64,000 bases of DNA, taken from the NCBI GenBank assembly GCA_022821085.1, contig JAJEEG010000003.1, positions 1 through 64,000 of the forward strand, read 5' to 3'. Positions 4,489 to 20,141 of the stretch are shown in pieces (positions within the stretch are counted from its first letter, which is position 1; each line of letters begins with the position of its first letter). The notes beneath the pieces were generated by a model. It was not told the DNA's origin and did not search any database. It saw nothing but the letters and a program-made list of their open reading frames with translations. Both the position numbers and the translations under genes were made by a program. Source of the stretch: Candidatus Latescibacterota bacterium. GTDB lineage: Bacteria; JAAXHH01.

Positions 4489-5151
4489 CTATCCGCCGCA
4501 GGAGGGTTGCATCACTTCTTCCACCCGCGCGCGCGTTTCCTCCTGCACTTCGTCGGGCGAACGCGCGCCGTCGATGATCCTGATGTGGTCAAGGGCGCTT
4601 CTCCGCCGCGCCAGTTCCAGGTAGTTCTCGCGGATGGCGCGGAGCGTTTCGAGATCCTCGAACAACTCGGTATCCGGCCGCGCCCGGCGTATGCGGTCCA
4701 TGCAGACTTCGGCGGGCGCGTCGATCAGCAGGGTCAGGTGGGGATGGATCGCCCGGGCGTTAATCGACTCGATCCAGTCCAGTTCGCCGGGCATCTCCCG
4801 CCACTGGTAGGCGAAGGACGAGAGGAAATACCGGTCGCACAAAACGGGGATGCCGCGGTGTATGTAGGATTCGATTTCCGTTTTGACGTGGTCGATCCGA
4901 TCGGCCGCGAACAGCAGCGCGTGACAGATTCCGTCGAGCTCCACCCGGCGCTGAAGGGCGTCTTTCAACAGCCTGCCGATGGGGCGGTTCGTGGGTTCCC
5001 CCGTGGTATGGACCGGACCTTCGTAACGGGCTTCCATCCACTGTCTGAGCCGCTTCAGCTGGGTCGTCTTGCCCGCCCCGTCGATCCCTTCGATCACGAT
5101 GAACGGCGCGGTGGTCTCCCCGGCGTCGCCGCGGACCTCCTTCCCCGTCAT
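4489..5151 (-). CDS. tmk: Thymidylate kinase
   Basis: Phosphorylates dTMP to dTDP for DNA synthesis. The P-loop GIDGAGKTT lies at residues 22-30, followed by the DRYFLSS motif and a LID region with RRARPDTELFED. The start is placed at 5151 because this ATG overlaps the stop of the upstream DUF624 gene as ATGA. Longer in-frame starts at 5163 and 5184 would run further into that gene. The resulting 220 residues fit the family length. The LID differs from the E. coli type, as in many non-proteobacterial enzymes. Confidence 0.95.
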   Translation of the reverse strand: MTGKEVRGDAGETTAPFIVIEGIDGAGKTTQLKRLRQWMEARYEGPVHTTGEPTNRPIGRLLKDALQRRVELDGICHALLFAADRIDHVKTEIESYIHRGIPVLCDRYFLSSFAYQWREMPGELDWIESINARAIHPHLTLLIDAPAEVCMDRIRRARPDTELFEDLETLRAIRENYLELARRRSALDHIRIIDGARSPDEVQEETRARVEEVMQPSCGG

Positions 5152-5828
5152 GAATACCCCCATGGGCGGAGCAGGTCCCGCCATCCACGCGCTTCCTCCA
5201 GGCCGCCGCCTTCCCTTCGCTCATATCGTTTCAGGATTTCCCTCAGCCCGGTGCTGAACAGGACGCCGATGGCGCCGAGACCCAGAAAGAGCAGTCCGAC
5301 GCCGCTGGCCAGGCTGAAGGCCATGACGAGGGCGCCGGCCGCCAGCAGCGCGAAGGAATGCCGCGGGTTGTCCACGACCAGGTAGACGCCCTTCCGGACG
5401 ATCTGCCTGACCGGTACCTGTTCGCGCAGCATGAGGGGCAGCGTGTATACGGCCGTCATGCAGACGAAGACGATCAGCCACATCATCACGCCGCTCAGAA
5501 TCGCCCCCGTCCATGGCCAGTCTTCCATGAGCCGGACGTAGAAGAGCACGTTGGCCGCCAGGAGGATCAGGACGCCCGCGTACAGGCCGCAGAGCAGAAA
5601 GCTCCGGCGCAGGTCCCCGCGGGTGTGGGCGAAGAAGTCCCTGATGCCCGTTTCTTCGTAGGCCGCGATGTGTCCGGTGACCCGGAACAGTCCGGCGAAG
5701 GCGAGGGGAAGGGTTACCAGCGGCAGGGCGAGCAGCAACCAGAGGATGTTGATCACGATCAGCGTTCCCAGGTAATCATAGGTATTCCAGAACCACTTCC
5801 TGAACAGACCGGGTTCCCTGTCCTGCAT
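5148..5828 (-). CDS. DUF624 (YesL-like) integral membrane protein
   Basis: About 226 residues with roughly five hydrophobic segments, and the YesL-type N terminus with a WNTYDYLGTL segment ahead of the first membrane span. Function is unknown; in Firmicutes yesL lies among sugar-uptake genes. The start at 5828 is preferred over the ATG at 5909 because the preceding 27 residues are Arg-rich and lack family resemblance, and because a plausible promoter (5881-5909) overlaps the longer start. It overlaps tmk by 4 bp. Confidence 0.8.
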   Translation of the reverse strand: MQDREPGLFRKWFWNTYDYLGTLIVINILWLLLALPLVTLPLAFAGLFRVTGHIAAYEETGIRDFFAHTRGDLRRSFLLCGLYAGVLILLAANVLFYVRLMEDWPWTGAILSGVMMWLIVFVCMTAVYTLPLMLREQVPVRQIVRKGVYLVVDNPRHSFALLAAGALVMAFSLASGVGLLFLGLGAIGVLFSTGLREILKRYERREGGGLEEARGWRDLLRPWGYS

Positions 5829-5880
5829 ATTCGGCGCACCCCGTATCCAGCGGCCTACTCGGACGCTCCACAACGCCAGC

Positions 5881-5909
5881 ATGGTACAGGCTCGCCCCCG
5901 AATTCGCAA
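5881..5909 (-). promoter_or_regulatory. Possible promoter for the DUF624-tmk operon
   Basis: On the minus strand there is TTGCGA (5904-5909), 17 nt, then TACCAT (5881-5886). It is divergent from the aromatic operon promoter, 25 nt away. The match is moderate, but its place fits a start codon at 5828. Confidence 0.45.
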
Positions 5910-5933
5910 CTGTTTTCTTGGTGAGAAAAAACC

Positions 5934-5962
5934 TTGACTTTACGGCCGTGCCGCGCTATAAT
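5934..5962 (+). promoter_or_regulatory. Near-consensus promoter of the aromatic supra-operon
   Basis: TTGACT (5934-5939), a 17-nt spacer and a perfect TATAAT (5957-5962). Transcription should start near 5969, about 48 nt before the leader-peptide ATG. No comparably strong promoter is seen within the following 16 kb of same-strand genes. Confidence 0.88.
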
Positions 5963-6016
5963 GGCGCATTCGACATACGGCAGCAGAACGGTTTTCACAT
6001 CGAGCAATGGACTGAT

Positions 6017-6136
6017 ATGACAGCCGCAAGTTCGTCCCGGTCATCCCGATTCTATGCATGGCGGAAGCAGAGCGATCTGTTTACCTGGTGGCCTTTTTAC
6101 GGGACGAGGCGGCATGTCATGCGAAGCGGCGCCTGA
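6017..6136 (+). CDS. Aromatic leader peptide (trpL-like)
   Basis: A 39-codon reading frame between the promoter and a terminator hairpin. It has eight aromatic codons: Phe12, Tyr13, Trp15, Phe22, Trp24, Trp25, Phe27 and Tyr28. Seven codons in the middle read FTWWPFY (6080-6100). The stop is at 6134-6136, 32 nt before the terminator stem. Tandem Trp codons ahead of a terminator and trpE(G) are the hallmark of ribosome-mediated transcription attenuation in trp operons. The added Phe and Tyr codons suggest, but do not prove, sensing of all three aromatic charged tRNAs. The ribosome binding site is weak, and the frame stays open upstream to 5918, which lies before the promoter. Confidence 0.82.
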   Translation: MTAASSSRSSRFYAWRKQSDLFTWWPFYGTRRHVMRSGA

Positions 6137-6174
6137 TTGAAGTAGATTCATCCTTCGTTGATTTGACCGGCCTC
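6106..6174 (+). promoter_or_regulatory. Predicted antiterminator pairing of the attenuator
   Basis: GAGGCGG at 6106-6112, just downstream of the FTWWPFY codons, can pair with CC (6167-6168) and GCCTC (6170-6174), leaving G6169 bulged. Those bases form the 5' arm of the terminator, so the two structures exclude each other. A ribosome stalled on the Trp/Phe/Tyr codons would leave 6106-6112 free. The pairing was found by eye; no folding energy was computed. Confidence 0.55.
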
Positions 6175-6206
6175 TACCCTCATAAGGTAGCGGCCTTTTT
6201 TGTTTT
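6169..6206 (+). terminator. Attenuator (intrinsic terminator) before trpEG
   Basis: The stem GGCCTCTACC (6169-6178) pairs with GGTAGCGGCC (6186-6195) with one T-C mismatch. The loop is CTCATAA. TTTTTTGTTTT follows at once (6196-6206). It ends about 80 nt before the trpEG start codon, where a trp attenuator is expected. Confidence 0.9.
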
Positions 6207-6284: not shown

Positions 6285-8546
6285 ATGCGTGTTACCCATA
6301 TACACCTGGAAGCCATCGAATACCAGACCGAAGGCGGCCTGTCCGTCAAGCGGTACGCCGAGCATCTGCCTCCGGACGAAGCCATTGAACCCGTAATCGA
6401 CGCGCTTGACGCCCGCCCGGGCGCCCTGTTCGCGTCCGGTTACGAGTATCCGGGAAGGTATACCCGGTGGGACATGGGGTTCGTCGATCCGCCGATCCGG
6501 ATCGAGACCCGGGAGAACGCCTTTCGTATCGACGCCCTGAACGTCCGGGGCGGGGTGTTGCTGCCCGCGATCCTCGCGCAGGTCGAAGGCCTGCGGGCTA
6601 CGCGTAACGTTGCCCGTCACGAAGACCGCGTCTCCGGCGAGGTACATCCGCCCGGTGAACATTTCCCGGAAGAGCTGCGCAGCCGGCAACCCTCCGTTTT
6701 CTCGATCCTGCGGGGGATCATCGATCTCTTCTCCTGCCCGGACGAGCATCATCTCGGGCTCTACGGCGCTTTCGGCTACGACCTTGCCTTCCAGTTCGAA
6801 CCCATGGACTACCGGCTGCCTCGTCCGAAGGACCAGCGCGACCTGGTGCTCTACCTGCCCGACCGGCTGGTGACGGTCGATCACAATCGCGAAGTGGCCG
6901 TCCGGTACGATTACGAATTCGATACGGACGGAGGGTCTACCCGGGGTCTGCCCAGGGAGGGCGCCGTCCAGCCCTACCGCGCGGGACAAGCCACGGCCGC
7001 CAGGGAATTCGAGAAGGGCGCCTATGCCGACGTCGTCCGCAAGGCGCAGGAGTACTTCAGGCGGGGCGATCTGTTCGAAGTCGTGCCCAGCCAGACGTTC
7101 TACGAGTCCTGCCCGGACCCGCCGTCCGAGATCTTCCGCCGCCTGAGGGAACGGAATCCCGCGCCTTACGCCACGCTCATCAACCTCGGACAGCGCGAAT
7201 ACCTGGTCGGCGCGTCGCCCGAGATGTTCGTCCGGGGCGAAGGGATCCGGATCGAGACCTGCCCCATATCAGGCACGGTCAGCCGGGGGAACGACGCGTT
7301 GAGCGACGCCGACCAGATCCTCAAGCTGCTGAGCTCGGAGAAAGAGGAATCCGAGTTGACCATGTGTACGGACGTGGACCGGAACGACAAGTCGCGGATA
7401 TGCGTGCCCGGCAGCGTCCGGGTCATCGGACGGCGCCAGATCGAGATGTACTCGAGGGTGATCCATACGGTCGACCACGTGGAAGGCATCCTGCGGCCGG
7501 AGTATGACGCGCTGGACGCCTTTCTCGCGCACACCTGGGCGGTCACGGTGACCGGCGCGCCGAAAATCTGGGCGATGCGGTTCATCGAAAGCAACGAACG
7601 GTCGTGCCGCGCCTGGTACGGCGGCGCGATCGGATTCCTCGGATTCGACGGGAACATGAACACCGGACTCACCCTCAGGACCATACGCATTAAAGACGGG
7701 ATCGCCGAGGTGAGGGCCGGGAGCACGCTGCTGATCGACTCCGATCCCGGGGACGAGGAGCGCGAGACGGAACTCAAGGCCATGGCGTTCATCGATGCAA
7801 TCGGGCGTCCCCGTGAACACCGGGGGGGAAGCGCCCATGCCGGATCCGCGGAAGACGCCGGATCGGGGAAGCGCGTGCTGCTGATGGACTACGAGGATTC
7901 TTTCGTGCATACGCTGGCCAATTACCTGCGCCAGACCGGCGCCGACGTCACGACGGTCAGAACGGGCATCTCGCGGTCCAGGCTGACGGAACTCATGGAC
8001 GCGTACGATCCGGACCTGGTCTTTCTGTCGCCCGGTCCCGGCCGGCCGTCGGATTTCGACGTGGCGCAGGCCATCGACGCGGCGCTGGAACGGGCGGTGC
8101 CCATCTTCGGCGTCTGCCTCGGGCTGCAGGCCATCGTCCAGTATTTCGGCGGCGAACTGGGCGTGCTGCCCTATCCCATGCACGGGAAGGAGTCGCGCGT
8201 GACCGTCCTGGAAGGGCGGCCCGGGCGGCCCGGGCGGCCCGGGCGTGACGGGCGTGACGGGACGCTGTTCGAAGGCTTCCCCCGGTCCTTCACGGTAGGC
8301 CGCTACCATTCGCTGCACGCCGTACGCGATCGGTTGCCGCCTGAACTAACGGTCACGGCAGAGACGGAAGACGGCACCGTCATGGCCATCGAACACCGCA
8401 CGATGCCCGTCGCGGCGGTACAGTTCCATCCCGAGTCCATCATGACGCTCAAGGACGGCATCGGCATCCGGCTCATCGACAACGTCTTCAGGAAACTGGT
8501 CGAAGCGGCCGATGCGGTGGACGCGAGCCGGGAGGGCGGTCCATGA
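6285..8546 (+). CDS. trpEG: Anthranilate synthase, fused TrpE-TrpG
   Basis: Makes anthranilate from chorismate and glutamine, the first step of tryptophan synthesis. The chorismate-binding TrpE part covers about residues 1-515, with GSTLLIDSDPGDEE-type motifs near its end. The class I glutamine amidotransferase part starts near 531 and has the triad Cys611 (GVCLGLQ), His715 and Glu717 (QFHPES). Fusion in this order is known from rhizobial TrpE(G), also attenuator-controlled. The start at 6285 is preferred over 6240: it has an ACAGGA site upstream and omits a stretch unlike the family. A Gly-Arg-Pro repeat insert lies in the TrpG part (see 8214-8258). Confidence 0.96.
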   Translation: MRVTHIHLEAIEYQTEGGLSVKRYAEHLPPDEAIEPVIDALDARPGALFASGYEYPGRYTRWDMGFVDPPIRIETRENAFRIDALNVRGGVLLPAILAQVEGLRATRNVARHEDRVSGEVHPPGEHFPEELRSRQPSVFSILRGIIDLFSCPDEHHLGLYGAFGYDLAFQFEPMDYRLPRPKDQRDLVLYLPDRLVTVDHNREVAVRYDYEFDTDGGSTRGLPREGAVQPYRAGQATAAREFEKGAYADVVRKAQEYFRRGDLFEVVPSQTFYESCPDPPSEIFRRLRERNPAPYATLINLGQREYLVGASPEMFVRGEGIRIETCPISGTVSRGNDALSDADQILKLLSSEKEESELTMCTDVDRNDKSRICVPGSVRVIGRRQIEMYSRVIHTVDHVEGILRPEYDALDAFLAHTWAVTVTGAPKIWAMRFIESNERSCRAWYGGAIGFLGFDGNMNTGLTLRTIRIKDGIAEVRAGSTLLIDSDPGDEERETELKAMAFIDAIGRPREHRGGSAHAGSAEDAGSGKRVLLMDYEDSFVHTLANYLRQTGADVTTVRTGISRSRLTELMDAYDPDLVFLSPGPGRPSDFDVAQAIDAALERAVPIFGVCLGLQAIVQYFGGELGVLPYPMHGKESRVTVLEGRPGRPGRPGRDGRDGTLFEGFPRSFTVGRYHSLHAVRDRLPPELTVTAETEDGTVMAIEHRTMPVAAVQFHPESIMTLKDGIGIRLIDNVFRKLVEAADAVDASREGGP
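8214..8258. repeat. 9-bp tandem repeat inside the TrpG domain
   Basis: Three copies of gggcggccc (8214-8240) and two of gggcgtgac (8241-8258) run in frame. They encode a collagen-like GRP GRP GRP GRD GRD segment between SRVTVLE and LFEGFP of the amidotransferase part. Other TrpG proteins have a short surface turn here, so the array looks like a slippage expansion in a tolerant loop. Confidence 0.9.
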
Positions 8547-9622
8547 ACCGGCTTGTGAACCAGCCTGCGAACCGGCCTGCGAACCGATCCATGCACCGGC
8601 CCGACGTCATCCTGACCGGAATCAAGCCGACGGGCAGCCCGCATCTCGGCAACTACATCGGCGCCATCCGGCCCGCGCTGGCACTCGCGCGGCGGTCGCC
8701 CGAAGCGCATGCCCTGTATTTCCTGGCGGACTATCACGCCCTGACGCTCGTGAAGGACCCCGTGCGCTTCAGAGACCTGTGCCACGAACTCGCCGCGACC
8801 TGGATCGCCTGCGGGCTGGATCCCGATCGCCAGGTCTTCTACCGCCAGTCGGACGTGCCGGAGGTGTTCGAACTGTCCTGGATCCTGTCCTGCTCGACGT
8901 CGAAGGGTCTGATGAACCGCGCCCACGCGTACAAGGCGCAGGTGGACCGTCACACGCGAGGCCACATGCGGAGCGGCGGGGACGTGGATGCCGGGGACGT
9001 GGAAGCCGGGGTGAACATGGGTTTGTATTCCTATCCCATACTCATGGCGGCGGACATCCTGCTGTTCCAGGCGAAGTACGTACCGGTGGGGCGGGACCAG
9101 GAACAGCACATCGAGATCGCCAGGGACATCGCCGCGCGATTCAACCGGTCCTTCGGCGACGTGCTCACCCTGCCGCTGTACCTGTCCGATCCTTCAACGG
9201 CCGAGATTCCCGGCACGGACGGAAGAAAGATGAGCAAGGCCTATAACAACACCATACCGCTTTTCGGGTCGCGCGAACAGTTGCGCAGGGCCATATTCGG
9301 GATCAAGACGGACTCGAGCCCGCCCGGCGCGCCCAAGGACCCCGGGACGTCGCTCGTCTTCCAGATCTACCGGCAGTTCGCGGACGAGGACCGGACGGAT
9401 ACGATGCGGAACCGGCTGGTGCAGGGCCGGATCACCTGGAAAGCGGCCAAGGAAGAGTTGTTCGACCTCATCGACGGTTTACTGGAACGCCCCAGGGCGG
9501 TTTACGAGGAGTTGATGGCCGATCGGTCCCGCATCGACCGCTTGCTGGAAGCGGGTGCCTGCAGCGCGAGGGAACTGGCCCGCCCGACCATGGAGATCGT
9601 GCGGCAGGCGGTCGGGCGATGA
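8543..9622 (+). CDS. trpS: Tryptophanyl-tRNA synthetase
   Basis: A class I synthetase charging tRNA-Trp. The 359 residues include the HIGH-like motif SPHLGNY after TGIKPTG, and the KMSKS-type motif GRKMSKAY. The GRDQEQHIEIARDIA segment is typical of bacterial TrpRS. It overlaps trpEG by ATGA. The first 20 residues (QPANRPANR and similar) come from a 12-bp repeat, and family alignment would begin near RPDVILTGIKPTG. Lying behind a Trp-codon attenuator means synthetase output should respond to the charging it controls. Confidence 0.97.
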   Translation: MNRLVNQPANRPANRSMHRPDVILTGIKPTGSPHLGNYIGAIRPALALARRSPEAHALYFLADYHALTLVKDPVRFRDLCHELAATWIACGLDPDRQVFYRQSDVPEVFELSWILSCSTSKGLMNRAHAYKAQVDRHTRGHMRSGGDVDAGDVEAGVNMGLYSYPILMAADILLFQAKYVPVGRDQEQHIEIARDIAARFNRSFGDVLTLPLYLSDPSTAEIPGTDGRKMSKAYNNTIPLFGSREQLRRAIFGIKTDSSPPGAPKDPGTSLVFQIYRQFADEDRTDTMRNRLVQGRITWKAAKEELFDLIDGLLERPRAVYEELMADRSRIDRLLEAGACSARELARPTMEIVRQAVGR

Positions 9623-9690
9623 CGGCGTACGTCCCGGGAACGGGAAGCGCGCAACCCGCGGCCCGCATGCCGAGGTCGGGCGACAGTGGT

Positions 9691-9749
9691 CTTCATGCCG
9701 GTGTCTTGCATGCCGGCGTCTTGCATGCCGGCGGCCCGCATGCCGGCGG
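9691..9749. repeat. 15-bp tandem repeat between trpS and trpD
   Basis: Four units of the form cttgcatgccggcgt: 9691-9704 (one base shorter), 9705-9719, 9720-9734 and 9735-9749. Each holds the palindromic core gcatgc or a close variant. They lie in the 163-bp trpS-trpD gap, ending shortly before the trpD ribosome binding site AGGAG. Confidence 0.9.
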
Positions 9750-9785
9750 CCTGGATTTCAGGCGACGCATAGGAGAAAGGGTTCC

Positions 9786-10796
9786 ATGATACAGCAGGCC
9801 ATAGCGAAGGCGATTGAAGGGATCTCGCTGACCGAAGCGGAAGCCGTGGAGGTCATGAACGGGATCATGTCGGGGGACGCCACGCCGGCGCAGATCGGCG
9901 CGTTCCTCGTCGCCTTCCGCCTGAAGGGCGAGACGATCGAGGAGGTCACCGGGTTCGCCAGGGTCATGCGCGCCCGGGCCACGCGGATCGACTGCCGGGC
10001 CTATCCCATCGTGGATACCTGCGGCACGGGCGGCGACGGAAAGCATACGTTCAACATATCGACGGCCGCGGCATTCGTGGCCGCGGCCGCGGGCGCGTTC
10101 ATCGCCAAGCACGGCGGCCGCGCGGCGTCCAGCAAGGCGGGCAGCGCCGACGTGCTGACGGCCCTGGGCGTCAATATCGAGACGCCGCCGGAAAGGGTGT
10201 CCGCCTGCATCGACGAGATCGGCATCGGGTTCATGTTCGCCCCCGCCCTCCACTCGGCCATGCGGTTCGCGAGCGGTCCGCGCCGGGAACTCGGCGTGCG
10301 GACGGTGCTCAACCTGCTGGGGCCGCTGACCAATCCGGCCGGGACCACGGCCCAGGTCATGGGCGTGTACGACGCGAGCGTCATCCAGACCGCCGCCCAC
10401 GTGCTGAACAACCTGGGGGCGGAGCGCGCTTTCGTGGTGCACAGCGCGGACGGCCTGGACGAGTTCACCACCACGGCGCCGACCCACGTGGCGGAGGCAC
10501 GGGACGGCTTCGTGAGGACCTATGACGTCGCGCCGGAAGACTTCGGCCTGCCGCGGGCTTCCATCGAGGACCTCAAGGGGGGCGAGGCGGAAGAGAACGC
10601 GGAGATTATCCGGTCTGTGCTGGCCGGGGAGTCCGGTCCCCGGCGGGACATCGTACTGCTTAACGCCGCCGCGGCGATCGTGGCCGCCGCCGCCGCGGAG
10701 GACTTCGACGAGGGCATCGAAAAGGCGGCCCGGGCCATCGACACCGGCGGGGCGCGGGAGAAGCTCGACGCATTGATCCGCATGACCAACGAGTAG
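9786..10796 (+). CDS. trpD: Anthranilate phosphoribosyltransferase
   Basis: Transfers phosphoribose from PRPP to anthranilate. The 336 residues are typical. The PRPP-binding glycine loop DTCGTGGDGKHTFNIST covers 77-93, and the KHGGRAASSKAGSADVL region follows. The start at 9786 is chosen because it follows AGGAGAAAGGG at good spacing and matches the family N terminus. Upstream in-frame codons from 9555 lie inside trpS and the repeat array. Confidence 0.97.
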   Translation: MIQQAIAKAIEGISLTEAEAVEVMNGIMSGDATPAQIGAFLVAFRLKGETIEEVTGFARVMRARATRIDCRAYPIVDTCGTGGDGKHTFNISTAAAFVAAAAGAFIAKHGGRAASSKAGSADVLTALGVNIETPPERVSACIDEIGIGFMFAPALHSAMRFASGPRRELGVRTVLNLLGPLTNPAGTTAQVMGVYDASVIQTAAHVLNNLGAERAFVVHSADGLDEFTTTAPTHVAEARDGFVRTYDVAPEDFGLPRASIEDLKGGEAEENAEIIRSVLAGESGPRRDIVLLNAAAAIVAAAAAEDFDEGIEKAARAIDTGGAREKLDALIRMTNE

Positions 10797-10887: not shown

Positions 10888-11733
10888 ATGAATATCCTTG
10901 ATCGAATCGTAGCGCATAAGATCGAAGAGGTCGAAGACCGGAAGCGGCGCGCGCCCCTGCCTGAAGCCGGACCCGAAACCGGACCCGTTCGCCGCGGCGA
11001 CGTCCGGCCCTTCGACCGCGCGCTGAAACAGGGAGACGGCATCGGGGTCATCGCCGAATTCAAAAAGGCTTCACCGTCGAAAGGCGCGATCCGTCCCGAC
11101 GTGGCGGCTGCGGAGATCGGGTCGGTCTACGCAGCCCACGGGGCATCGGCCATATCGGTTTTGACGGACCGGCGGTTCTTCCAGGGCTGCAACGAGGACC
11201 TGGCGGTCCTTCGCCGGTGCGTCCCCGTGCCCGTGCTGCGCAAGGAGTTCATCGTGGATGAGTACCAGGTCCACGAGACCGCGGCGCTGGGCGCGGACGC
11301 CATGCTGCTCATCGCGGCCATCCTGGACGACACCCGCCTGGCGGCCCTCCAGCGTACCGCGCAGGCATACGGCCTGCACTGCCTGGTGGAAGTGCACGAC
11401 GAGCGGGAACTGGACCGGGCCCTGGCGGCAGGCAGCCGCGTCATCGGCATCAACAACCGGGACCTGACGGACTTCACCGTTTCGCTGGAAACGTCGTTGC
11501 GTCTCCGGCCGCGCATTCCCCGGGGCATCGTGACCGTCAGCGAGAGTGGGATCCACGGGCGCGAGGACGTCCTGCGGCTGGAGCAGGCGGGATTCGACGC
11601 CGTACTCGTGGGCGAGTCCCTGATGGCGGCGGAGGAGATCGGCGGACAACTGGACGCCCTGCTGGGCCGGTCCGCCGCGAAGGCGCAGCAGGGAATCGAA
11701 GGTCGGAAGGCCACCTCGGGGACAGGGCCATGA
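10888..11733 (+). CDS. trpC: Indole-3-glycerol phosphate synthase
   Basis: Closes the indole ring in tryptophan synthesis. A 281-residue TIM barrel with IAEFKKASPSKG (55-66, catalytic Lys60), VLRKEFIVDEYQ, GINNRDL and VSESGI. About 15 extra C-terminal residues follow the barrel before the ATGA overlap with trpF. A 91-bp gap with C- and G-rich imperfect repeats separates it from trpD. It is a separate gene, not fused to trpF as in E. coli. Confidence 0.97.
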   Translation: MNILDRIVAHKIEEVEDRKRRAPLPEAGPETGPVRRGDVRPFDRALKQGDGIGVIAEFKKASPSKGAIRPDVAAAEIGSVYAAHGASAISVLTDRRFFQGCNEDLAVLRRCVPVPVLRKEFIVDEYQVHETAALGADAMLLIAAILDDTRLAALQRTAQAYGLHCLVEVHDERELDRALAAGSRVIGINNRDLTDFTVSLETSLRLRPRIPRGIVTVSESGIHGREDVLRLEQAGFDAVLVGESLMAAEEIGGQLDALLGRSAAKAQQGIEGRKATSGTGP

Positions 11734-12368
11734 ACGACAGGGCCACGAATTCGGTCAGGATCAAGATCTGCGGCATCACGAACGAGGCGGACGCCGCCGC
11801 GGCGGTTCGCGCGGGCGCGGACGCGCTCGGGTTCATTTTTTATACGGGCAGTCCCCGCTGCGTGGCGCCGGACCGGGCCGCGGAAATCGTGGCCGGACTG
11901 CCGCCCTTCGTCGTCCCGGTGGGCGTATTCGTGAACGCTGCGGCCGGCGACGTGGAAGGCATCTGCGAGACTGCGGGTATCCAGGTCGTGCAGCTCCACG
12001 GCGACGAAACGCCCGGTTTCTGCGGTGCGCTGGCCGGTTCCGGGCGCCTGGTCATCAAGGCCTTCCGCGTAAGGGACGCATCGTGGAAATCCGCTGCCGC
12101 GGACTATCCCGTCGGAGCGGTATTGCTCGACACGTTTGCCGAAGACCGGTACGGCGGCACGGGCGCCACCTTCGACTGGCGGCTCGTGGAAGGCAGCCCC
12201 CACCGCGTCATCCTGAGCGGCGGGCTGAATCCGGACAACGTGGCCGAAGCCGTGCGCAGCGTGCGGCCCTACGGTGTGGATACGGGCAGCGGCGTGGAAC
12301 GGGAACCGGGACGCAAGGACCACGACAAGGTCCGGGCTTTCGTGGAAGCGGCGAGGCGGCCGATATGA
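11730..12368 (+). CDS. trpF: Phosphoribosylanthranilate isomerase
   Basis: Catalyses the Amadori rearrangement before TrpC. A 212-residue TIM barrel with IKICGITNEADA near the N terminus (catalytic Cys14), VQLHGDE, the DTFAEDRYGGTG strand that carries the general acid Asp, and LSGGLNPDNV phosphate-binding residues. It overlaps trpC and aroE by 4 bp each (ATGA), implying translational coupling. Confidence 0.97.
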   Translation: MNDRATNSVRIKICGITNEADAAAAVRAGADALGFIFYTGSPRCVAPDRAAEIVAGLPPFVVPVGVFVNAAAGDVEGICETAGIQVVQLHGDETPGFCGALAGSGRLVIKAFRVRDASWKSAAADYPVGAVLLDTFAEDRYGGTGATFDWRLVEGSPHRVILSGGLNPDNVAEAVRSVRPYGVDTGSGVEREPGRKDHDKVRAFVEAARRPI

Positions 12369-13258
12369 TCTCTTCACATGAAAACGGGTCCAACGGCAAC
12401 GGCCCCGGCATATCGGGTTCGACCCGCGTGGTCGGCGTATGCGGGCAGGATATCGGGTATACGCTTTCGCCGGCCATGCATAACGCGGCCTTTCGCCATT
12501 GCGGACTGGATTACGTGTATGTAACCTTCGAAATCGCGGCGTCCGAAGTGCGGCAGGCCGTGGACGGCATCCGGGGACTGGGGCTGGCCGGAGTCAACGT
12601 GACCAAGCCGCTCAAGACGGACGTGCTGCCCTACCTGGACGAGGTGTCCGAAGAGGCCCGCAGGATCGGTTCGGTCAACACCATCGTGAACCATGCGGGC
12701 CGGCTCGCAGGCACGTCGACGGACGGCGCCGGACTGTTGCGGGCGCTCGGGGAAAGAGGCGTTGCCGTCGCCGGTTCGAGGCTGTTGATCCTGGGTGCGG
12801 GCGGTGCGGCCCGGGCGGCCTGTGCCATGGCCCGCGGGCAGGGGGCCGCATCGATCACCATCGCCGCGCGTAACGCGGACCGGGCCCGGGACACGGCGTC
12901 GGTGGGTGGCGCGGAAGCGATCACGCTTACGCCATCGGACCTCGGCGCCGCGGTCCGTGCGTCCGACCTGGTGATCAACGCGATCCCGGGGGACCTGCCG
13001 TTGGAAGGCGACTGGTTCACCGGCGGACAGTTCGTCTACGACACGCGGTACGACCAGGCGGAAACCGCGTTGATGCGCTGCGCCCGGTCGCGGGGCGCGG
13101 AGACCTCGAACGGCATCGGCATGCTGCTGTTCCAGGGCGCGGCATCTTTCGAAACCTGGACCGGCCGCGCGGCGCCGGTCGAAGTGATGAGGAGCGCGTT
13201 GGAAGAACAGCTAAGGCACAGGAAAGCCCGGGAGGAGAAGGCATGTTGCGATACCTGA
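12365..13258 (+). CDS. aroE: Shikimate 5-dehydrogenase
   Basis: Reduces 3-dehydroshikimate with NADPH. The 297 residues include the substrate-site motif [18 protein letters not shown] with the catalytic Lys, GTSTDGAG with the catalytic Asp, and the nucleotide-binding [11 protein letters not shown]. The position before TD is Ser rather than the common Asn. The first 20 residues are Asn/Gly/Ser-rich and unlike the family, but the ATGA overlap with trpF supports the start at 12365. Confidence 0.95.
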
Positions 13259-14400
13259 CCGCAGGCGAATCACACGGACCGGCCATATCGGCAATCCTCG
13301 AGGGACTGCCCGCGGGGCTGCCCGTAGCCGCGGAAGACATCAACCGGGACCTGAAACGGCGCCAGGGCGGGTACGGACGGGGCCGGAGAATGCAGATCGA
13401 GACCGATACGATCGAGATCCGGGGCGGCGTGCGCCACGGCAGGACCATGGGCGGGCCGGTATCTCTCGTCGTGCAGAACCGGGACTGGCAGAACTGGACG
13501 GACGTGATGGCGATCGAGGAGGCCGAGGGACCGGTGAGGCGGCGGGTGACCCGACCCCGGCCCGGCCACGCCGATCTCGCGGGTGGACTGAAGTACGACC
13601 GCCGCGATCTGAGGGACATCCTGGAACGGGCGAGTGCGCGGGAGACGACCATGCGCGTTGCGGTCGGCGCGATTGCCCGGTCCCTGCTCGGGGCCTTCGG
13701 CATGCGCGTGCTCAGCCACGTGGTGCGGATCGGGCAGGTGGACGCGGACGTGAGCGGCCTGTCGAACGATGAGATCATCGACCGGGCCGAGGCCTCGCCC
13801 GTGCGCTGCGCCGACGAAGACGCCGCGCAGAAGATGATCGCGGAGATCGACCGGGCGAAGTCCCTCAAGGACACGATCGGCGGGGTTTTCGAGGTCAAGG
13901 TGCTTAACGCGCCGCCCGGCCTCGGCAGCCACGTGCAGTGGGACCGCAAGCTCGACGGCCGCCTGGCCCAGGCCGTCATGAGCATCCAGGCCGTGAAGGG
14001 CGTGGAGATCGGGCTGGGCTTCGGCGTGACCCGGGTGCTCGGTTCCGAGGTCCACGACGAGATCTTCTACGAAGACGGACGGTTCTACCGCGAAACGAAC
14101 CGGGCCGGCGGCGTCGAGGGCGGCATGACCGAAGGCGAGGAAATCGTCGTCCGCGGCGCGCTCAAGCCCATCGCGACGCTGATGCGCACGATCATGTCGG
14201 TCGATATAGAGACCAAGGAAGCCTTCGATTCCGCCAAGGAGCGGTCGGACGTATGTACCGTGCCCGCCGCCGGCGTGATCGGCGAGGCGGTGGTGGCCTT
14301 CGTCGTCGCCGACGCCATGCAGGAAAAGTTCGGAGGTGACAGCCTGGAGGAAATGCAGCACAACTACAGGGGCTACATGGACCAGCTGGCGCGCTACTAG
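13243..14400 (+). CDS. aroC: Chorismate synthase
   Basis: Converts EPSP to chorismate using reduced FMN. The 385 residues contain the signatures GESHG (8-12), [11 protein letters not shown] and the DARETTMR-like stretch [12 protein letters not shown]. The last part holds [16 protein letters not shown]. It overlaps the end of aroE by 16 bp. EPSP synthase (aroA), the step before it, is absent from the window. Confidence 0.97.
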
Positions 14401-14435: not shown

Positions 14436-16040
14436 GTGGCTGAACCTGTAAAACGGCAACACGGCGGCATCGTCCTGATCGGCTTCATGGGCACGGGCAA
14501 GACGGCGGTGGGCTGGCGCCTCGCACGTGGCCTGGGCATTCCCTTCGTGGACACCGATGCCCTGATCGAGAAGAAGGCCGCCGCGCGTATCCCCGAGATC
14601 TTCGAGCAGCGGGGGGAGTCCGGCTTCCGGACGATCGAGAAGGCGGTCATCCGGGGCCTCGCCGACGGGGTGCGCAGGGTGGTCGCCACCGGCGGCGGCG
14701 CGGTGCTCGATCCGGACAACTTCGCCGTGCTGCGGTCGCTCGGTTCGGTCATACACCTGAACGCCCCGGCGGAAACGGTGCTGGCGCGCACACGAGGCGA
14801 TTCGGGGATCAGGCCGCTCCTGGCCGGGAACGACCCGCTGGATCGGATCCGGTCGCTCCAGCGCGAGCGCGCACCGGTCTACGGCCGGGCGGACCACGAA
14901 ATCGACACGTCGCGGCATACGATCGAGGAAACGGTAGAGATGGTGAAGGCCTGGGTGGAAAGCGAAGAACGCGTGATCCGGGTGGACCTCGGATCCGACA
15001 GTTATGACATCGTGATCGGGCCCGATGTGCTCGACCGGCTGGGACACCGGATGACGTCTTTCGATCTGACCGGCCGCGCGCTGGTCGTGACCCATCCGGG
15101 CATTGCACAACGCTATGGAGGCCGGACGACGGACGCCCTGCGGTCGGCCGGGTTCGAACCGGACGTGGTCGAAGTGCCGGACGGCGAGGCGCAGAAATCG
15201 CTGCCGTGGGCCGGGAAGCTCTATGACGCCATGCTGGCCCACCGGATGGACCGCCGTTCACCCGTCATCGCGCTGGGCGGCGGGGTCATCGGAGACCTGG
15301 CCGGTTTCGCCGCGGCCACCTTCATGCGCGGCATCCCGTTCATCCAGGTCCCCACCTCGCTCCTGGCCCAGGTGGACGCCAGTGTGGGGGGCAAGGTAGC
15401 CGTGGACCATCCGCGCGGGAAGAACCTGATCGGTGCGTTCTACCAACCCCTGCTCGTACTGGCCAGCCTGGATACGCTCGACAGCCTGCCGGACCGGGAA
15501 CTGCGCGCGGGCATGGCGGAAGTGATCAAGTATGGCGTCATTGCCGACCCCGGCCTGTTCGCCTATATTGAGGGGCGCCTGGACGATATACTGAAGCGCG
15601 ACCGCGGCGTGCTGGCGCACCTGGTGGCGCGGTCCTGCGAGATCAAGGCGGATGTGGTCGCCGGCGACGAGCGCGAACAGGGACGTCGCGCCATACTCAA
15701 TTTCGGCCATACCATGGGCCACGCCATCGAGACGCAGACGGGCATGCTGCACGGCGAGGCCGTGGCCATCGGCATGGTCTACGCCGCCCGGGTCGCGGAG
15801 CGCATGGACCTGCTGGACGGCGAAAGCGTCCGGCGGCTGACCGAACTACTGCGGCGCACGGGGCTGCCCCACCGGTGCGACGGGCTGGACGTCCCGGCGA
15901 CGATCGAGACCATGAAGTTCGACAAGAAGTCGGTGGGCGGCCGTCCGCGTTTCATCCTGCCCAGCCGCATCGGCGAGGTGGCCGTCCGCGACGACGTGCC
16001 GGCCGAGTACATCCGGTCCGTCCTCGCGGCAGGGAACTAG
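14436..16040 (+). CDS. aroKB: Fused shikimate kinase - 3-dehydroquinate synthase
   Basis: A bifunctional enzyme for steps 5 and 2 of the shikimate pathway. The kinase part (about 1-170) has the P-loop GFMGTGKTA (16-24), DTDALIE, RGESGFR and ATGGGAV. The synthase part (about 180-534) has [13 protein letters not shown], the [14 protein letters not shown] region, the EVIKYGVI segment and [10 protein letters not shown], which supply NAD, zinc and substrate ligands. The join falls near [13 protein letters not shown] with no stop or frameshift. The start is GTG at 14436. In many bacteria aroK and aroB are neighbouring but separate genes. Confidence 0.95.
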
Positions 16041-16074: not shown

Positions 16075-16524
16075 ATGATGAGAATACTCGTGTTGCACGG
16101 TCCGAATCTGAACATGCTGGGCGTCCGGGAACCGGAAGTTTACGGCACGGACACGCTGGAGGACATCAACCGGTCCCTCGAGACGTCCGTGGCGGGACGG
16201 GGGATCGAGATGCGCATCCGCCAGTCCAACCACGAAGGGGTGCTGGTGGACGAGATCCAGCAGACCCTCGGCTGGGCCGACGGCATCCTGATCAATCCCG
16301 GCGCGTACACCCACACGAGCATCGCCCTGCACGACGCGATCGTCGCCGTGGGCCTGCCCGTCGTGGAAGTCCACATGTCGGACATACACGCCCGGGAGAA
16401 GTTCCGGCATCATTCCTATATCGAACCGGTGGCGCTCAGGCAGATCTGCGGACACGGCAGCGACAGCTACCGGCTGGGCCTGGAGGCCCTGATCGACCAC
16501 ATCAGCAGCGGGAGCGAAGGATGA
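16075..16524 (+). CDS. aroQ: 3-Dehydroquinate dehydratase, type II
   Basis: Dehydrates 3-dehydroquinate. The 149 residues match the dodecameric type II family: [11 protein letters not shown] (6-16), catalytic Tyr23, QSNHEG, the [15 protein letters not shown] segment, and [11 protein letters not shown]. It overlaps trpB by 4 bp. Confidence 0.97.
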
Positions 16525-17747
16525 CGGCGATTACGCTGCCCGACCAGCGCGGACATTTCGGGATATTCGGCGGCCGCTACGTTCCGGAGACGCTGATGAC
16601 GGCCCTGGACGAGCTGCTTGAAGTGTACGAGGCGGCGAAAGGGGACCCGGACTTCGAGGAGGAGTTCCGTTACTACCTCCGGGACTACGTGGGCCGTCCG
16701 TCCCCCCTCTACTACGCGGAGCGACTGACGCAGACCCTCGGCGGTGCGCGGATCTATCTCAAGCGGGAGGACCTGAACCACACGGGTGCCCACAAGATCA
16801 ACAACACGATCGGCCAGATCCTGCTCACCCGGCGCATGAAGAAACCACGGGTCATCGCGGAGACCGGGGCCGGCCAGCACGGCGTGGCCACGGCCACCGT
16901 GGCCGCCCGATTCGGCCTGGAATGCGACGTCTACATGGGTTCCGAGGACATGGAACGCCAGGCGCTGAACGTCTTCCGCATGCGCCTGATGGGCAGCCGG
17001 GTCATCGCCGTCGACGCGGGCAGCCGCACGCTGAAGGACGCGCTGAACGAGGCCCTGCGCGACTGGGCGACCAACGTCCGCCATACCCATTACATCATCG
17101 GATCGGTGGCGGGGCCCCATCCCTTCCCCATGCTGGTGCGTGATTTCCAGTCGGTCATCGGCCGGGAAGCGCGGGAGCAGGTCCTGGAGAAAGAAGGACG
17201 GCTTCCCGACGTGCTCGTCGCCTGCGTGGGAGGCGGCAGCAACGCCATCGGGCTCTTCCATCCCTTCCTCGGCGACGGCGTACGCCTGGTCGGCGTGGAG
17301 GGCGCGGGACACGGGCTGGATACGGGGATGCACGCGGCGACGCTGGGCCTGGGCACGCCGGGCGTGCTGCACGGCGCCATGAGCTACACCGGACAGGACG
17401 CGAACGGCCAGATCCAGGTCGCCCATTCCGTCTCCGCCGGACTCGACTATCCCGGCGTGGGACCCGAGCACAGCTACCTGAAGGACTCCGGACGTGCGGA
17501 GTACGTGAGCGTGACCGACGACGAGGCGCTGGAGGCCTTCGAACTGCTTTCCAGGGTCGAAGGGATCATACCCGCGCTCGAAAGTGCCCACGCCATCGCC
17601 CATATCGCCCGGATTGCCCCGGAAATGGATCGGGAGGAGGTCATCGTCGCCGGGCTGTCGGGCCGCGGGGACAAGGACGTCGAGCAGGTGGACGGGTTAC
17701 TGGCCGGAAACGATGAGCGCGGCGAAGGCGGAGGAGGCGCTGAATGA
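16521..17747 (+). CDS. trpB: Tryptophan synthase beta chain
   Basis: The PLP enzyme that joins indole and serine. The 408 residues have [10 protein letters not shown] near the N terminus, the PLP lysine in HTGAHKINN (Lys92), ETGAGQHG, and the phosphate-binding VGGGSNAIG loop. This is the TrpB1 type that works with TrpA, which follows with a 4-bp overlap. Confidence 0.98.
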
Positions 17748-18550
17748 ACCGGATCGAAGAGACTTTCGCGTCGCTGAAGTCCGCGGGCCGCAAGGCGCTG
17801 ATTCCCTACGTCATGGCGGGGGACCCGGACCTGGAAACGACGGCCGCGCTGGTCATTGAACTGGATCGCCGTGGGGCCGACCTGGTGGAACTGGGCGTGC
17901 CCTTTTCCGACCCCATCGCCGACGGCCCCACGATCCAGCGCGCCGCGCTGCGGGCCCTGAATCAGGGAACGACCCTGCGGGCCATCGTCGACACGGTAGC
18001 CTCGATCAGAAAGCAGTCCACCATACCCATCGTCTTGATGACCTACTACAACCCGGTGCTCGCCTACGGGATCGGGGACCTCTGCCGGGACGCCGCCCGC
18101 GCGGGCGTGGACGGCCTGATCGTGCCCGACCTGCCGCCGGAAGAAGGGACCGAACTGTCCGACGCCTGCCGGAGGCATGGCCTCACCGTGGTCTTCCTGG
18201 TGGCGCCCACGAGCACAGCGGCGCGGATCGAACTGGTGAGCCGGCATACCACGGGATTCGTCTACTGCGTCTCCCTGACCGGCGTAACCGGTGCGCGGGG
18301 AAAACTGGCGGACGGGGTGGACGCATTCATGGCGCAGGTGCGGTCCCACACGGACCGGCCCCTCGGACTGGGCTTCGGCATCTCGTCGCCGGAACAGGCC
18401 GGTGAGGCCGCGTGCCTGGCCGACGGGGTCATCGTGGGTAGCGCCATCATCAACGTGATGGAGGCGCACGCCGGCGAGTCGGACATGCTCCGGTCCGTGG
18501 GCGAATACGCCGCGTCGCTGCGCCGCGGCATCGACAAGGGCCGACGGTGA
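17744..18550 (+). CDS. trpA: Tryptophan synthase alpha chain
   Basis: Cleaves indole-glycerol phosphate. A 268-residue TIM barrel with the catalytic pair Glu49 and Asp60 in [36 protein letters not shown], and [10 protein letters not shown]. It ends the Trp-specific part of the cluster and is followed by the longest internal gap of the operon. Confidence 0.97.
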
Positions 18551-18749
18551 AGGCTTCGTCCGGCGAAGGACCGGCACTGGCATTATCAGGTGGTCTGACG
18601 GGATCTTGACATGGCATCTTTTTCAGGCATCGGAGGAGCGGTCAGTGGGCGTCCAGGAGACCGGACCGGTCTTCGCGGCGCCCACCTGTTTTACCCCGTT
18701 CCCGGTCTTCGCCGGGAAAAAACGGGTACGCACCAACCTGGGAGGAGTT
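18551..18749 (+). other. 199-bp internal gap between the Trp part and the Phe/Tyr part
   Basis: There is no convincing gene here. A TTGACA hexamer sits at 18606-18611 without a good -10 box at 17 nt. A stem-loop TTCCCGG-TCTTCG-CCGGGAA lies near 18702-18721 without a following T-run. A short open frame from ATG 18611 contains a Leu-Phe-Tyr codon cluster. The gap ends in the strong GGAGGAG site of the chorismate mutase gene. It might hold a second control point, but the evidence is thin. Confidence 0.4.
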
Positions 18750-19115
18750 ATGGTCCGAGGGATTCGCGGCGCTATAACCGTTGAATCGAATACAGCGGAA
18801 GCTATTCGAAGCGCTGTTCATCGGCTGCTTTCAACGATCGTGGACCGAAACGGCATCGAACTGGAACGGATCGCCAGCGTGGTTTTCTCCGTGACGAAGG
18901 ACATCGACGCGGAGTCTCCGGCCTTTGGCGCGCGGCAGATGGGGTGGACCTCGATCCCCCTGTTCTGCACGCAGGAGATGGAGGTCCCGGAGGGACTCGC
19001 CCGGTGCGTACGGGTACTGATTCATCTAAACACGGATAAATCGCAGGATGAAATCCGGCATGTGTACCTGGACGGCGCCGTCGTGCTCCGGCCGGACATC
19101 GCCGAGGGAGGATGA
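18750..19115 (+). CDS. aroH: Chorismate mutase, AroH type
   Basis: Rearranges chorismate to prephenate. The 122 residues match the small monofunctional AroH fold of Bacillus: VRGIRGAITV at the N terminus with Arg7, the SVVFSVTKDIDAE segment, RCVRVLIH, and HVYLDGAVVLRPD at the C terminus. The ATG at 18750 follows GGAGGAG, and the upstream in-frame stretch from 18606 is unlike the family. Neither tyrA nor pheA in this cluster carries a mutase domain, so this enzyme serves both. Confidence 0.94.
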   Translation: MVRGIRGAITVESNTAEAIRSAVHRLLSTIVDRNGIELERIASVVFSVTKDIDAESPAFGARQMGWTSIPLFCTQEMEVPEGLARCVRVLIHLNTDKSQDEIRHVYLDGAVVLRPDIAEGG

Positions 19116-19116
19116 A

Positions 19117-20133
19117 ATGGTGGTTGTTATGAAACTCGGGGCTTCAAAGGAACAGAAGGAGCACGTCCGGGAGACGATCCGGGCTTTCGGCTGCAAGCCA
19201 CGGGATATCCAGGGCGACGAGATGTCCATCATCTGCGTGATCGGCAATACGCTCAGCCTCGTTCCCGAACAGTTCGAGATCCTGGAGGGGGTGGACCGCG
19301 TTCAGCGCATCCAGCGGCCCTACAAGCTGGTAAGCCGGGAGGTGCAGCCGCACAAGACCCGTTTCCAGGTAGGCGACGTGACGATCGGCGGCGACGGCAT
19401 CGCCATCATCGCCGGTCCCTGCTCTGTCGAATCCTATGACCAGTTCCTGGAGGCGGCCCACCACGCACGGGCCGCGGGGGCCCACATTATACGCGGCGGG
19501 GCGTTCAAGCCCAGGACCTCGCCCTACAGCTTCCAGGGGCTCGGTGAGGAGGGCCTGAAGATCATGGCCCGGGTCAGCGAGGAAACGGGCCTGCCGACCA
19601 TCTCGGAGGTGATGGAGCCCGAGATGGAGCCCATGGTCTCCGAGTACGTGGACATGCTGCAGATCGGCGCGCGGAACATGCAGAACTATCCGCTGCTGAA
19701 CGTAGCGGGGCGCAGCAACAAGCCCGTCATGCTCAAGCGGGGCATGTCCGCCACGCTCGAGGAGATGCTGCTGGCGGCCGAGTACATCCTGGCGGCGGGG
19801 AACCACCATGTCGTCCTGTGCGAAAGGGGTATCCGGACCTTCGAGACCTGGACCCGGAACACACTCGACATCTCCGCCGTGCCCGTGCTGCAGAAATACA
19901 CCCATCTGCCCGTGTTCATCGACCCGAGCCACGGGACCGGCAACGCCGATTTCGTGGGACCGGCCGCCCGGGCGGCCGTGGCGGTGGGCGCCGACGGACT
20001 CATGATCGAGATGCATCCGACGCCGGAGCGCGCGCTGTCCGACGGGGACCAGTCCCTGACTCCGGAAGCGCTGACCTCCCTGATCCCGGAACTGAAGGCG
20101 GTCGCGACGGCCGTCAACCGTACCATCGGCTGA
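19117..20133 (+). CDS. aroF: DAHP synthase, type I-beta with ferredoxin-like domain
   Basis: Condenses PEP and erythrose 4-phosphate, the first shikimate-pathway step. Of 338 residues, about 1-70 form the ferredoxin-like regulatory domain (MVVVMKLGASKEQ start). The KDO8PS-like barrel follows with IIAGPCSVES, RGGAFKPRTSPYSFQG, LKRGMSAT and the IDPSHGTGN metal-site motif. In Thermotoga the same layout confers feedback inhibition by Tyr and Phe, likely also here. The start at 19117 follows GGGAGGA and lies one base after the aroH stop. Confidence 0.96.
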   Translation: MVVVMKLGASKEQKEHVRETIRAFGCKPRDIQGDEMSIICVIGNTLSLVPEQFEILEGVDRVQRIQRPYKLVSREVQPHKTRFQVGDVTIGGDGIAIIAGPCSVESYDQFLEAAHHARAAGAHIIRGGAFKPRTSPYSFQGLGEEGLKIMARVSEETGLPTISEVMEPEMEPMVSEYVDMLQIGARNMQNYPLLNVAGRSNKPVMLKRGMSATLEEMLLAAEYILAAGNHHVVLCERGIRTFETWTRNTLDISAVPVLQKYTHLPVFIDPSHGTGNADFVGPAARAAVAVGADGLMIEMHPTPERALSDGDQSLTPEALTSLIPELKAVATAVNRTIG

Positions 20134-20141
20134 GCTGGCCT

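Follow-up and report, generated by a model that had tools for sequence, protein, structure and literature searches.

Does the leader that precedes trpEG in this stretch of Candidatus Latescibacterota DNA (the window, 64,000 nucleotides) respond to tryptophan alone, or to all three aromatic amino acids whose biosynthetic genes lie behind it? Escherichia coli controls its aromatic pathways with separate sensors for each branch (TrpR and trpL, TyrR, pheL); here, in a phylum represented by metagenome assemblies, a single RNA element, about 230 bases long, appears to sense all three end products and to control about 16 kb of genes. A sequence-only reading of the window had proposed that shortage of any aromatic charged tRNA may open transcription of all three branches plus trpS. 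Based on a comparison of 16 genomes, 12 from the window's genus and the others from four further genera (G012–G015), with all five genera belonging to one phylum and thus not being independent trials, we consider it likely that the element works as a ribosome-mediated transcription attenuator whose control region is pan-aromatic, which would make it a testable prediction on multi-input control by ribosome stalling. The whole element lies at 5934–6201, ahead of the trpEG start codon (ATG at 6285), and has the following parts:

5934–5962, + strand: sigma-70 type promoter, TTGACT-17-TATAAT, 11 of 12 consensus bases matched
6017–6136, + strand: leader peptide ORF of 39 codons with three Trp, three Phe and two Tyr (ATG 6017, TGA 6136), from the ORF list and comparison across 16 genomes
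6050–6061, + strand: first aromatic codon cluster, F12 Y13 A14 W15; other genera's leaders also have aromatic codons in this part
6080–6100, + strand: second aromatic codon cluster, FTWWPFY (codons 22–28), from leader comparison and alignment
6106–6128, + strand: antiterminator 5′ arm, within the leader ORF, from folding and an arm-swap test
6152–6174, + strand: antiterminator 3′ arm, overlapping the terminator 5′ arm, from folding and an arm-swap test
6169–6201, + strand: intrinsic terminator, GGCCTCTACC-loop-GGTAGCGGCC-T6, with a near-invariant stem and a variable loop in 16 of 16 genomes

The promoter had been called near-perfect, and its two hexamers and spacing were found as described, although the consensus match alone is weak evidence for a promoter, with one match in 801 bases compared with 0.6 expected in shuffled sequences. 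In G012–G015, visual inspection likewise showed TTGACT upstream of the leader, partnered by a hexamer resembling TATAAT or TATATT. The strong terminator claimed just before trpEG was borne out (GGCC-T-CTACC/GGTAG-C-GGCC-T6, −15.1 kcal/mol), and a GC-rich stem followed by a T-run precedes the first structural gene in all 16 genomes of the phylum. Just 5′ of the promoter, at 5900–5930, lies AACTGTTTTCTTGG, kept in several members of the genus and partly in G012, G014 and G015 (by eye), which is possibly a regulator site or an element of a divergent promoter. The adjoining divergent gene (5148–5909, − strand) encodes a membrane protein with weak similarity to the MusI family, below that family's cut-off, and with no Pfam match; it adjoins the leader in all eight relatives checked.

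Behind the leader, all operon genes lie on the + strand between 6285 and 21844 and span the Trp, Phe and Tyr branches. Family searches gave these assignments:

6285–8546, + strand: trpEG, fused anthranilate synthase
8543–9622, + strand: trpS, a class I tRNA synthetase of the W/Y family, taken as TrpS with no TrpS/TyrS subfamily model applied
9555–10796 (ORF), + strand: trpD; domain from about residue 80, true start probably later
10888–11733, + strand: trpC
11730–12368, + strand: trpF
12083–13258 (ORF), + strand: aroE; true start probably near 12400
13243–14400, + strand: aroC
14436–16040, + strand: aroK-aroB fusion
16075–16524, + strand: aroQ, type II dehydroquinase
16521–17747, + strand: trpB
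17744–18550, + strand: trpA
18606–19115 (ORF), + strand: aroH, monofunctional chorismate mutase; domain from about residue 50
19048–20133, + strand: DAHP synthase
19818–21005 (ORF), + strand: tyrA, prephenate dehydrogenase; domain from about residue 109, true start near 20139
21002–21844, + strand: pheA, prephenate dehydratase

A single transcript is plausible, since between 6200 and 22000 we found only one promoter-like site, a weak one (1.8 expected in shuffles), and three terminator-like sites, one of them on the + strand (7.2 expected). EPSP synthase (aroA) is encoded outside the operon, and two PF00275 genes occur elsewhere in the window's genome. The order trpE, trpG, trpD, trpC, trpF, aroE, aroC, aroKB, aroQ, trpB, trpA, aroH, aroF, tyrA, pheA is common to G004, G005, G007, G011 and G013, with trpE and trpG fused in G007 and G011 and with tyrA and pheA in one ORF in G013; G012 (to aroH) and G014 (to aroC) show the same order as far as their contigs extend. 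The pheA gene is on the leader's contig in 11 of the 16 genomes and on another contig in G006, G009, G012, G014 and G015. About 1.4 kb of extra sequence, absent from the window, was noted between trpA and aroH in G012 and G013 (loci L054 and L055).

The trpS gene sits between trpEG and trpD in the window and in G007 and was not found in the operon of six other relatives checked (G004, G005, G011, G012, G013 and G014), so that it is probably a late addition and not ancestral to the operon. Ten genomes of the genus carry the fused trpEG, whereas G004 and G005 have separate trpE and trpG in the same place behind the same leader; the fused proteins (L001–L010) share about 41% identity with the unfused TrpE of these two genomes (L013 and L014) over the matched part. 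Anthranilate synthase was apparently displaced within the genus while the leader stayed, the regulation seemingly outlasting the enzyme.

The leader peptide of the window (MTAASSSRSSRFYAWRKQSDLFTWWPFYGTRRHVMRSGA) is preceded by GGA five bases 5′ of its ATG, and an aromatic-rich leader ORF was present in all 16 genomes of the phylum. Despite large sequence differences, the leaders of the five genera each have 2–4 Trp, 3–8 Phe and 1–3 Tyr codons (3–4 Trp, 3 Phe and 2–3 Tyr in the 12 genomes of the window's genus). Those outside the genus, MSFMLPVFFSYSFRPFWQAFRFVWRPFYPAIARRDTTRS in G012, MTTVTYFPISFMGYWRQSFLFTWRPFYGKRRDVKRSHEHE in G013, MCDAHRSPQSFRPYLFQAWPWRPFPFTPWYFYGFPVGREVRRSIEPGL in G014 and MTFIVSPISVYRIQAWLWRVFPFTRWFFTGLR in G015, are 37–53% identical to the window's peptide. 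Alignment in relatives had been set beforehand as the refutation test of the mixed-codon claim, and its outcome spoke for the claim. Among 11 distinct leaders from five genera (the remaining five of the 16 being identical to the window's peptide), five columns (M1, S10, W15, F22 and F27) are invariant, and Y28 is kept in 10 of 11; the other well-kept columns (T23, G29, R31, R32, R36 and S37) lie mostly over the antiterminator arm. Tandem UGG codons are not conserved as regulatory codons across these leaders: the Trp-Trp pair at codons 24–25 is confined to the window's genus and is lost outside it, where WR, PW or RW is found. We read the conservation pattern of the Trp, Phe and Tyr codons as suggesting selection on codon content, and the codon content of the leader matches the content of the operon.

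Chance is disfavored as the origin of this aromatic richness. In dinucleotide shuffles (5000 per leader), the combined Trp, Phe and Tyr count was reached 2 times for the window, 10 for G011, 39 for G012, 22 for G013, 0 for G014 and 515 for G015, the last of which alone would not reject chance. The other two frames across the window's leader have one and three aromatic codons, compared with eight in the 39 codons of the ORF. The 39-codon frame with its FTWWPFY run held up as first described. With the window's operon proteins used as background for all genera, Trp was singly enriched in all six leaders tested, the most of the three residues, while Phe was singly enriched in the four other genera and not in the window's leader (p 0.11), and Tyr in no leader (p 0.07–0.5 per leader).

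The strongest competing explanation is an ordinary Trp attenuator, in which control depends on the Trp codons alone and the presence of Phe and Tyr is either accidental or a by-product of the RNA sequence. It draws on trpEG being the first gene, on Trp being the residue most enriched over background in every leader tested, on a W-x-W motif in two of the four other genera, and on the position of W24 at the minimum of the stall geometry described below. We nevertheless consider it unlikely, since the residues that are invariant across genera include F22 and F27 besides W15 while the Trp-Trp pair is lost. In addition, all 16 leaders have more Phe and Tyr codons together than Trp codons, Phe alone exceeds Trp in all four other genera (5–8 compared with 2–3), and the two are equal in 11 of 12 genomes of the genus. 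Tyrosine is also kept within the genus: codon 13 is Tyr in 9 of 12 genomes and His, Asp or Asn in the other three, codon 14 is Tyr in 5 of 12, and all 12 genomes have Tyr at one or the other although neither column is fixed.

Constraint is unevenly distributed along the element. Compared with nine relatives carrying the fused trpEG, the window's sequence from codon 21 to the T-run is 96.8–99.2% identical, whereas the trpEG DNA is 81.8–92.8% identical, which points to strong constraint on the switch and on the leader's second half. ORF codons 1–20 are 80.0–96.7% identical and the spacer after the T-run 45–88%. Within the genus, codons 1–20, where the first aromatic cluster lies, show no more conservation than trpEG DNA, a pattern consistent with a first half that drifts like trpEG except for its Phe, Tyr and Trp content. 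The near-invariance of the second half within the genus is more than attenuation alone might need, and the trp leader of Sinorhizobium meliloti is said to act in trans; an additional trans activity of the aborted leader RNA or peptide is quite improbable here, given that what is conserved falls on the arms and the terminator.

The mutually exclusive pairing proposed for GAGGCGG was upheld by comparison. Its GAGGC (6106–6110) pairs with GCCTC (6170–6174) as the outer end of a longer antiterminator, 6106–6128/6152–6174. When the RNA between the last aromatic codon and the 3′ boundary of the terminator 5′ arm was folded, the antiterminator was the minimum-energy structure of this pre-terminator stretch in all 16 genomes (12 of them near-identical), with GGCC or GGCCTC paired to a purine-rich 5′ arm located within the ORF; in G015 the arm begins at the stop codon, so that the C-terminal part of the peptide is missing there. 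The folding energy of the window's antiterminator is not below that of shuffled sequences (z −0.7 to −0.8), and z ranges from −0.4 to −1.1 in 14 of the 16 genomes, with lower values for G014 (−2.3) and G013 (−4.2). The sequence-only reading had suggested folding the leader and comparing the two structures. The competing structures were indeed found, but the fold of the whole leader (z −0.8) favors the terminator, with the 5′ arm paired instead to earlier ORF sequence. Because the fold energies are unexceptional and the terminator wins the whole fold, the case for the antiterminator rests on comparing relatives.

In an arm-swap test across the five genera, the natural matching of 5′ and 3′ arms had the lowest total energy of 120 pairings; after removal of the invariant ends, four of 120 pairings equaled or undercut it. 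For each row taken separately, the cognate arm was best for the window, G012, G013 and G014, while the own pairing of G015 was the weakest or next to weakest of its row with whole arms. When the variable 5′ arm was shuffled by mononucleotides, 128 of 2000 shuffles paired as well for the window, 189 for G012, 63 for G013, 33 for G014 and 792 for G015. As a set, cognate arms pair better than swapped ones, and we regard the support for a conserved antiterminator exclusive with the terminator as moderate; for G015 taken alone, these values suggest that support for the pairing is absent to weak.

The proposed mechanism follows from this arrangement. Transcription would start near 5970. With the three aromatic tRNAs all charged, translation would pass through the aromatic codons and carry the ribosome onto the 5′ arm (6106–6128, the last third of the ORF); with this arm covered, the 3′ arm would be free, the terminator (6169–6201) would form, and transcription would end before trpEG. 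Under shortage of Trp, Phe or Tyr, the ribosome would stall at codons 12–25, behind the 5′ arm; the antiterminator, allowed best by stalls at codons 22–24, would form ahead of transcription of the terminator 3′ arm, and RNA polymerase would enter the three-branch supra-operon. What is computed from the DNA is the set of parts and how they are conserved, together with the codon content and geometry of the element; the transcription start, the translation of the leader, stalling by uncharged tRNA and the sensing of each of the three amino acids are what we infer from them.

We modeled the geometry by setting the leading edge of the ribosome 12 bases past the start of the A-site codon, which we take to be its footprint, and folded the remainder. 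In the window, the antiterminator is least disfavored with F22 to W24 in the A site, where it is 0.4–1.2 kcal/mol less stable than the terminator fold; the deficit is 4.3 kcal/mol at W25, 3.1–6.5 at F12–W15, 6.4–6.5 at codons 16–21, and more than 10 from F27 onward, where the arm is covered. Comparable dips were found in G013 at F21–R24 (−0.1 to 1.3 kcal/mol), in G014 at F24–F31 (1.1 to 3.8) and in G015 at W26–F28 (3.2 to 3.9), and in these three and the window the antiterminator is lost 1–3 codons past the dip. No dip was seen in G012 (7.5–10.5 kcal/mol to codon 29, then up to 14.8). Overall, the computed stall geometry shows a dip over aromatic codons in four of the five genera and antiterminator loss on completion of the ORF in five of five. 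The terminator fold is the more stable at every stall position except two in G013 (−0.1), so antitermination would have to be kinetic, as in classical attenuation models. In the window, F27 and Y28 lie past the switch point, where a stalled ribosome should cover the 5′ arm, and the model leaves their conservation unexplained.

The evidence for the three amino acids differs in strength, and the claim that shortage of any aromatic charged tRNA may open the operon is retained here with this grading. Sensing of Trp and of Phe appears well supported by the codon comparison. Tyr sensing is the weakest of the three, and would probably depend on codon 13 or 14, because a stall at Phe 27 or Tyr 28, which are so near the arm, should block that arm; the leader of G015 has a single Tyr codon, early in the ORF. 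Least probable among the explanations considered is a nascent-chain arrest peptide, for which TnaC is the model, sensing free aromatic amino acids and not tRNA charging: the peptide is long and aromatic, with 28 of 39 codons unvarying in the genus, but its C-terminal part is missing in G015 and elsewhere overlaps the arm, codon 28 varies synonymously in the genus (TAC in six genomes, TAT in six), and the fixation within the genus runs past the ORF to the terminator, suggesting constraint on the RNA.

Among other candidate regulators, a T-box was rejected, with RF00230 found in none of 14 genomes of the family by a search that was positive in 5 of 14 control genomes, and with none between 5000 and 24000 in the window. 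Regulation by TrpR was likewise rejected, as PF01371 was not found in the window's own genome (about 96% complete). The families of Rfam 15 gave no match to the element at gathering score, and with E-values up to 10 there were three unrelated weak matches, all below their own gathering scores.

Within the phylum, a 207-base query from the window gave one match per genome in all 16 genomes, upstream of trpE, spanning the terminator region only in G012, G014 and G015. A covariance model of the control region recovered all 16 members at E-values of 8e-19 or better, having been built from those same members. Outside the phylum, it gave weak matches in 7 of 368 genomes drawn from across the domain (E 2e-4 to 1e-2; 384 searched in all, with filters that lose weak matches). 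Upon reading five places in four of these seven genomes (those other than G220, G095 and G280), we found no leader or homolog of the window's genes in the fetched stretch. A scan of genome contigs for the terminator pattern returned 13 loci, 11 of them in genomes of the phylum; the other two (L065 and L073) had no aromatic-rich leader in the 330 bases read upstream.

At least four other genomes, picked by eye, carry trpE and pheA close together (G152, G112, G103 and G038), and in three of these clusters (G152, G112 and G103) we found no comparable Phe/Tyr-rich leader. The leader of G152, where trpE is first and pheA and tyrA lie downstream, has two Trp, two Phe and no Tyr codons. In G112 (L166, reverse strand), two leader-like ORFs with terminators are built round Trp runs, NNYWWSWWKIFRFRG and, before trpE, STWCWWWNNLSF, with counts of four Trp, two Phe and one Tyr in one leader and four Trp, four Phe and one Tyr in another. 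No leader was found by the ORF filter at the head of the G103 cluster.

The fourth cluster differs. G038 (L165) has the order ADH synthase (aroA′), dehydroquinate synthase II (aroB′), chorismate mutase-prephenate dehydratase, aroA, tyrA, trpE and then further trp genes, with MNLLAANNTSFCQYWYYWFSCACGRGEVC and a strong terminator before aroA′; within this cluster, trpE is preceded by a separate leader-like ORF of its own, containing WWW, and by a second terminator. Matches were found in 50 of 61 genomes of G038's order, mostly at the terminator only. Among the best 20 of these 50 (L168–L187), all 20 loci read have a Phe/Tyr/Trp leader, defined by a minimum of one Trp and of four aromatics in twelve residues; examples are FYFWYFYF, SYFWFFWYYYF and FYFWYWFF. 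These leaders have 2–7 Phe and 2–4 Tyr codons, with one Trp in 15 of 20 and two in 5 of 20, and may be mainly Phe/Tyr sensors. The aroA′ gene follows the leader in 19 of the 20 loci; for the 20th, the available sequence stops short. Five of these leaders were scanned against Rfam, and no family covered any of them.

Several known systems bear on both leaders. Attenuators of the E. coli trpL type place a leader ORF, an antiterminator and a terminator upstream of trp genes. The pheA and pheST attenuators have Phe codons in the control region together with a terminator and antiterminator; they use Phe only and serve a single branch or a synthetase operon, whereas the window's element is mixed and heads a three-branch operon. 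The thr and ilvGMEDA leaders are multivalent, with codons for several amino acids of one pathway set, and thus resemble the window's in that one leader addresses several amino acids, a likeness in codon content; their sets are branched-chain or Thr/Ile, not aromatic. The pheA attenuator and the thr and ilvGMEDA operons are named in PMC1183508, and pheST in PMC1262725. According to the latter, the trp attenuators of Actinobacteria share with the window's element the leader ORF, antiterminator and terminator upstream of trp genes, as well as GGCC-rich complementary triples; their leaders have double or triple UGG, whereas in the window's phylum Phe plus Tyr outnumber Trp and the operon spans three branches.

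A further precedent is in Desulfovibrio vulgaris, for which a putative attenuator was listed in 2005 for the supra-operon aroA′>aroB′>aroQ-pheA>aroF>tyrA>[trp] (Table 7 of PMC1173090). That paper, which never uses the term "leader peptide", describes putative attenuators in front of tyrA supra-operons. Like the window's, that attenuator heads an aro-trp supra-operon, with a different first gene, gene order and terminator sequence. The gene order of G038 equals the D. vulgaris order in Table 7, the paper's aroF being taken as EPSP synthase, and from gene order only G038 would be a Desulfovibrio relative. No leader with Trp, Phe and Tyr control codons was found described in the full-text literature searched (which leaves out most subscription papers), but the earlier statement that no attenuator with this logic is known has to be qualified in view of the D. 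vulgaris putative attenuator and the Phe/Tyr/Trp leaders of G038's order.

The leaders of G038's order are unlike the window's in first gene, gene order and terminator, and we therefore read the two as seemingly unrelated and as a likely convergence; this second case suggests that operon content can shape leader codon content. Whether pan-aromatic attenuation is a recurrent design in some lineages that merge Trp, Phe and Tyr genes seems to us evenly poised. It would act as an OR gate on three tRNA charging states and would have arisen at least twice, once before trpE in the window's phylum and once before aroA′ in the order of G038, where the second, Trp-only attenuator of G038 would adjust the trp branch alone. 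We place recurrence no higher because three trp-pheA clusters have no such leader and because the leaders of G038's order contain only one or two Trp.

For a broader view of leaders before trpE, we surveyed 80 genomes of 70 other families, drawn from at least 124 genomes outside the phylum with a PF04715 match, taking one match per genome and 650 bases upstream; a gene matching PF04715 may be either TrpE or PabB, and the survey would miss leaders before another first gene. It yielded 14 candidate leader ORFs with terminators in 13 of the 80 loci. Trp exceeded Phe plus Tyr in 8 of the 14 (such as WRWWW, WWVW and WSWSW) and did not in the other 6 (L081, L084, L098, L140 and two in L106). The L081 candidate has one Trp, three Phe and three Tyr, with a weak (−8.2) and distant terminator. 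In L106 (G073), the trpE leader candidate WCIWGWRAWRYY is of mixed Trp/Tyr composition, with five Trp, one Phe and four Tyr, and is followed by a terminator.
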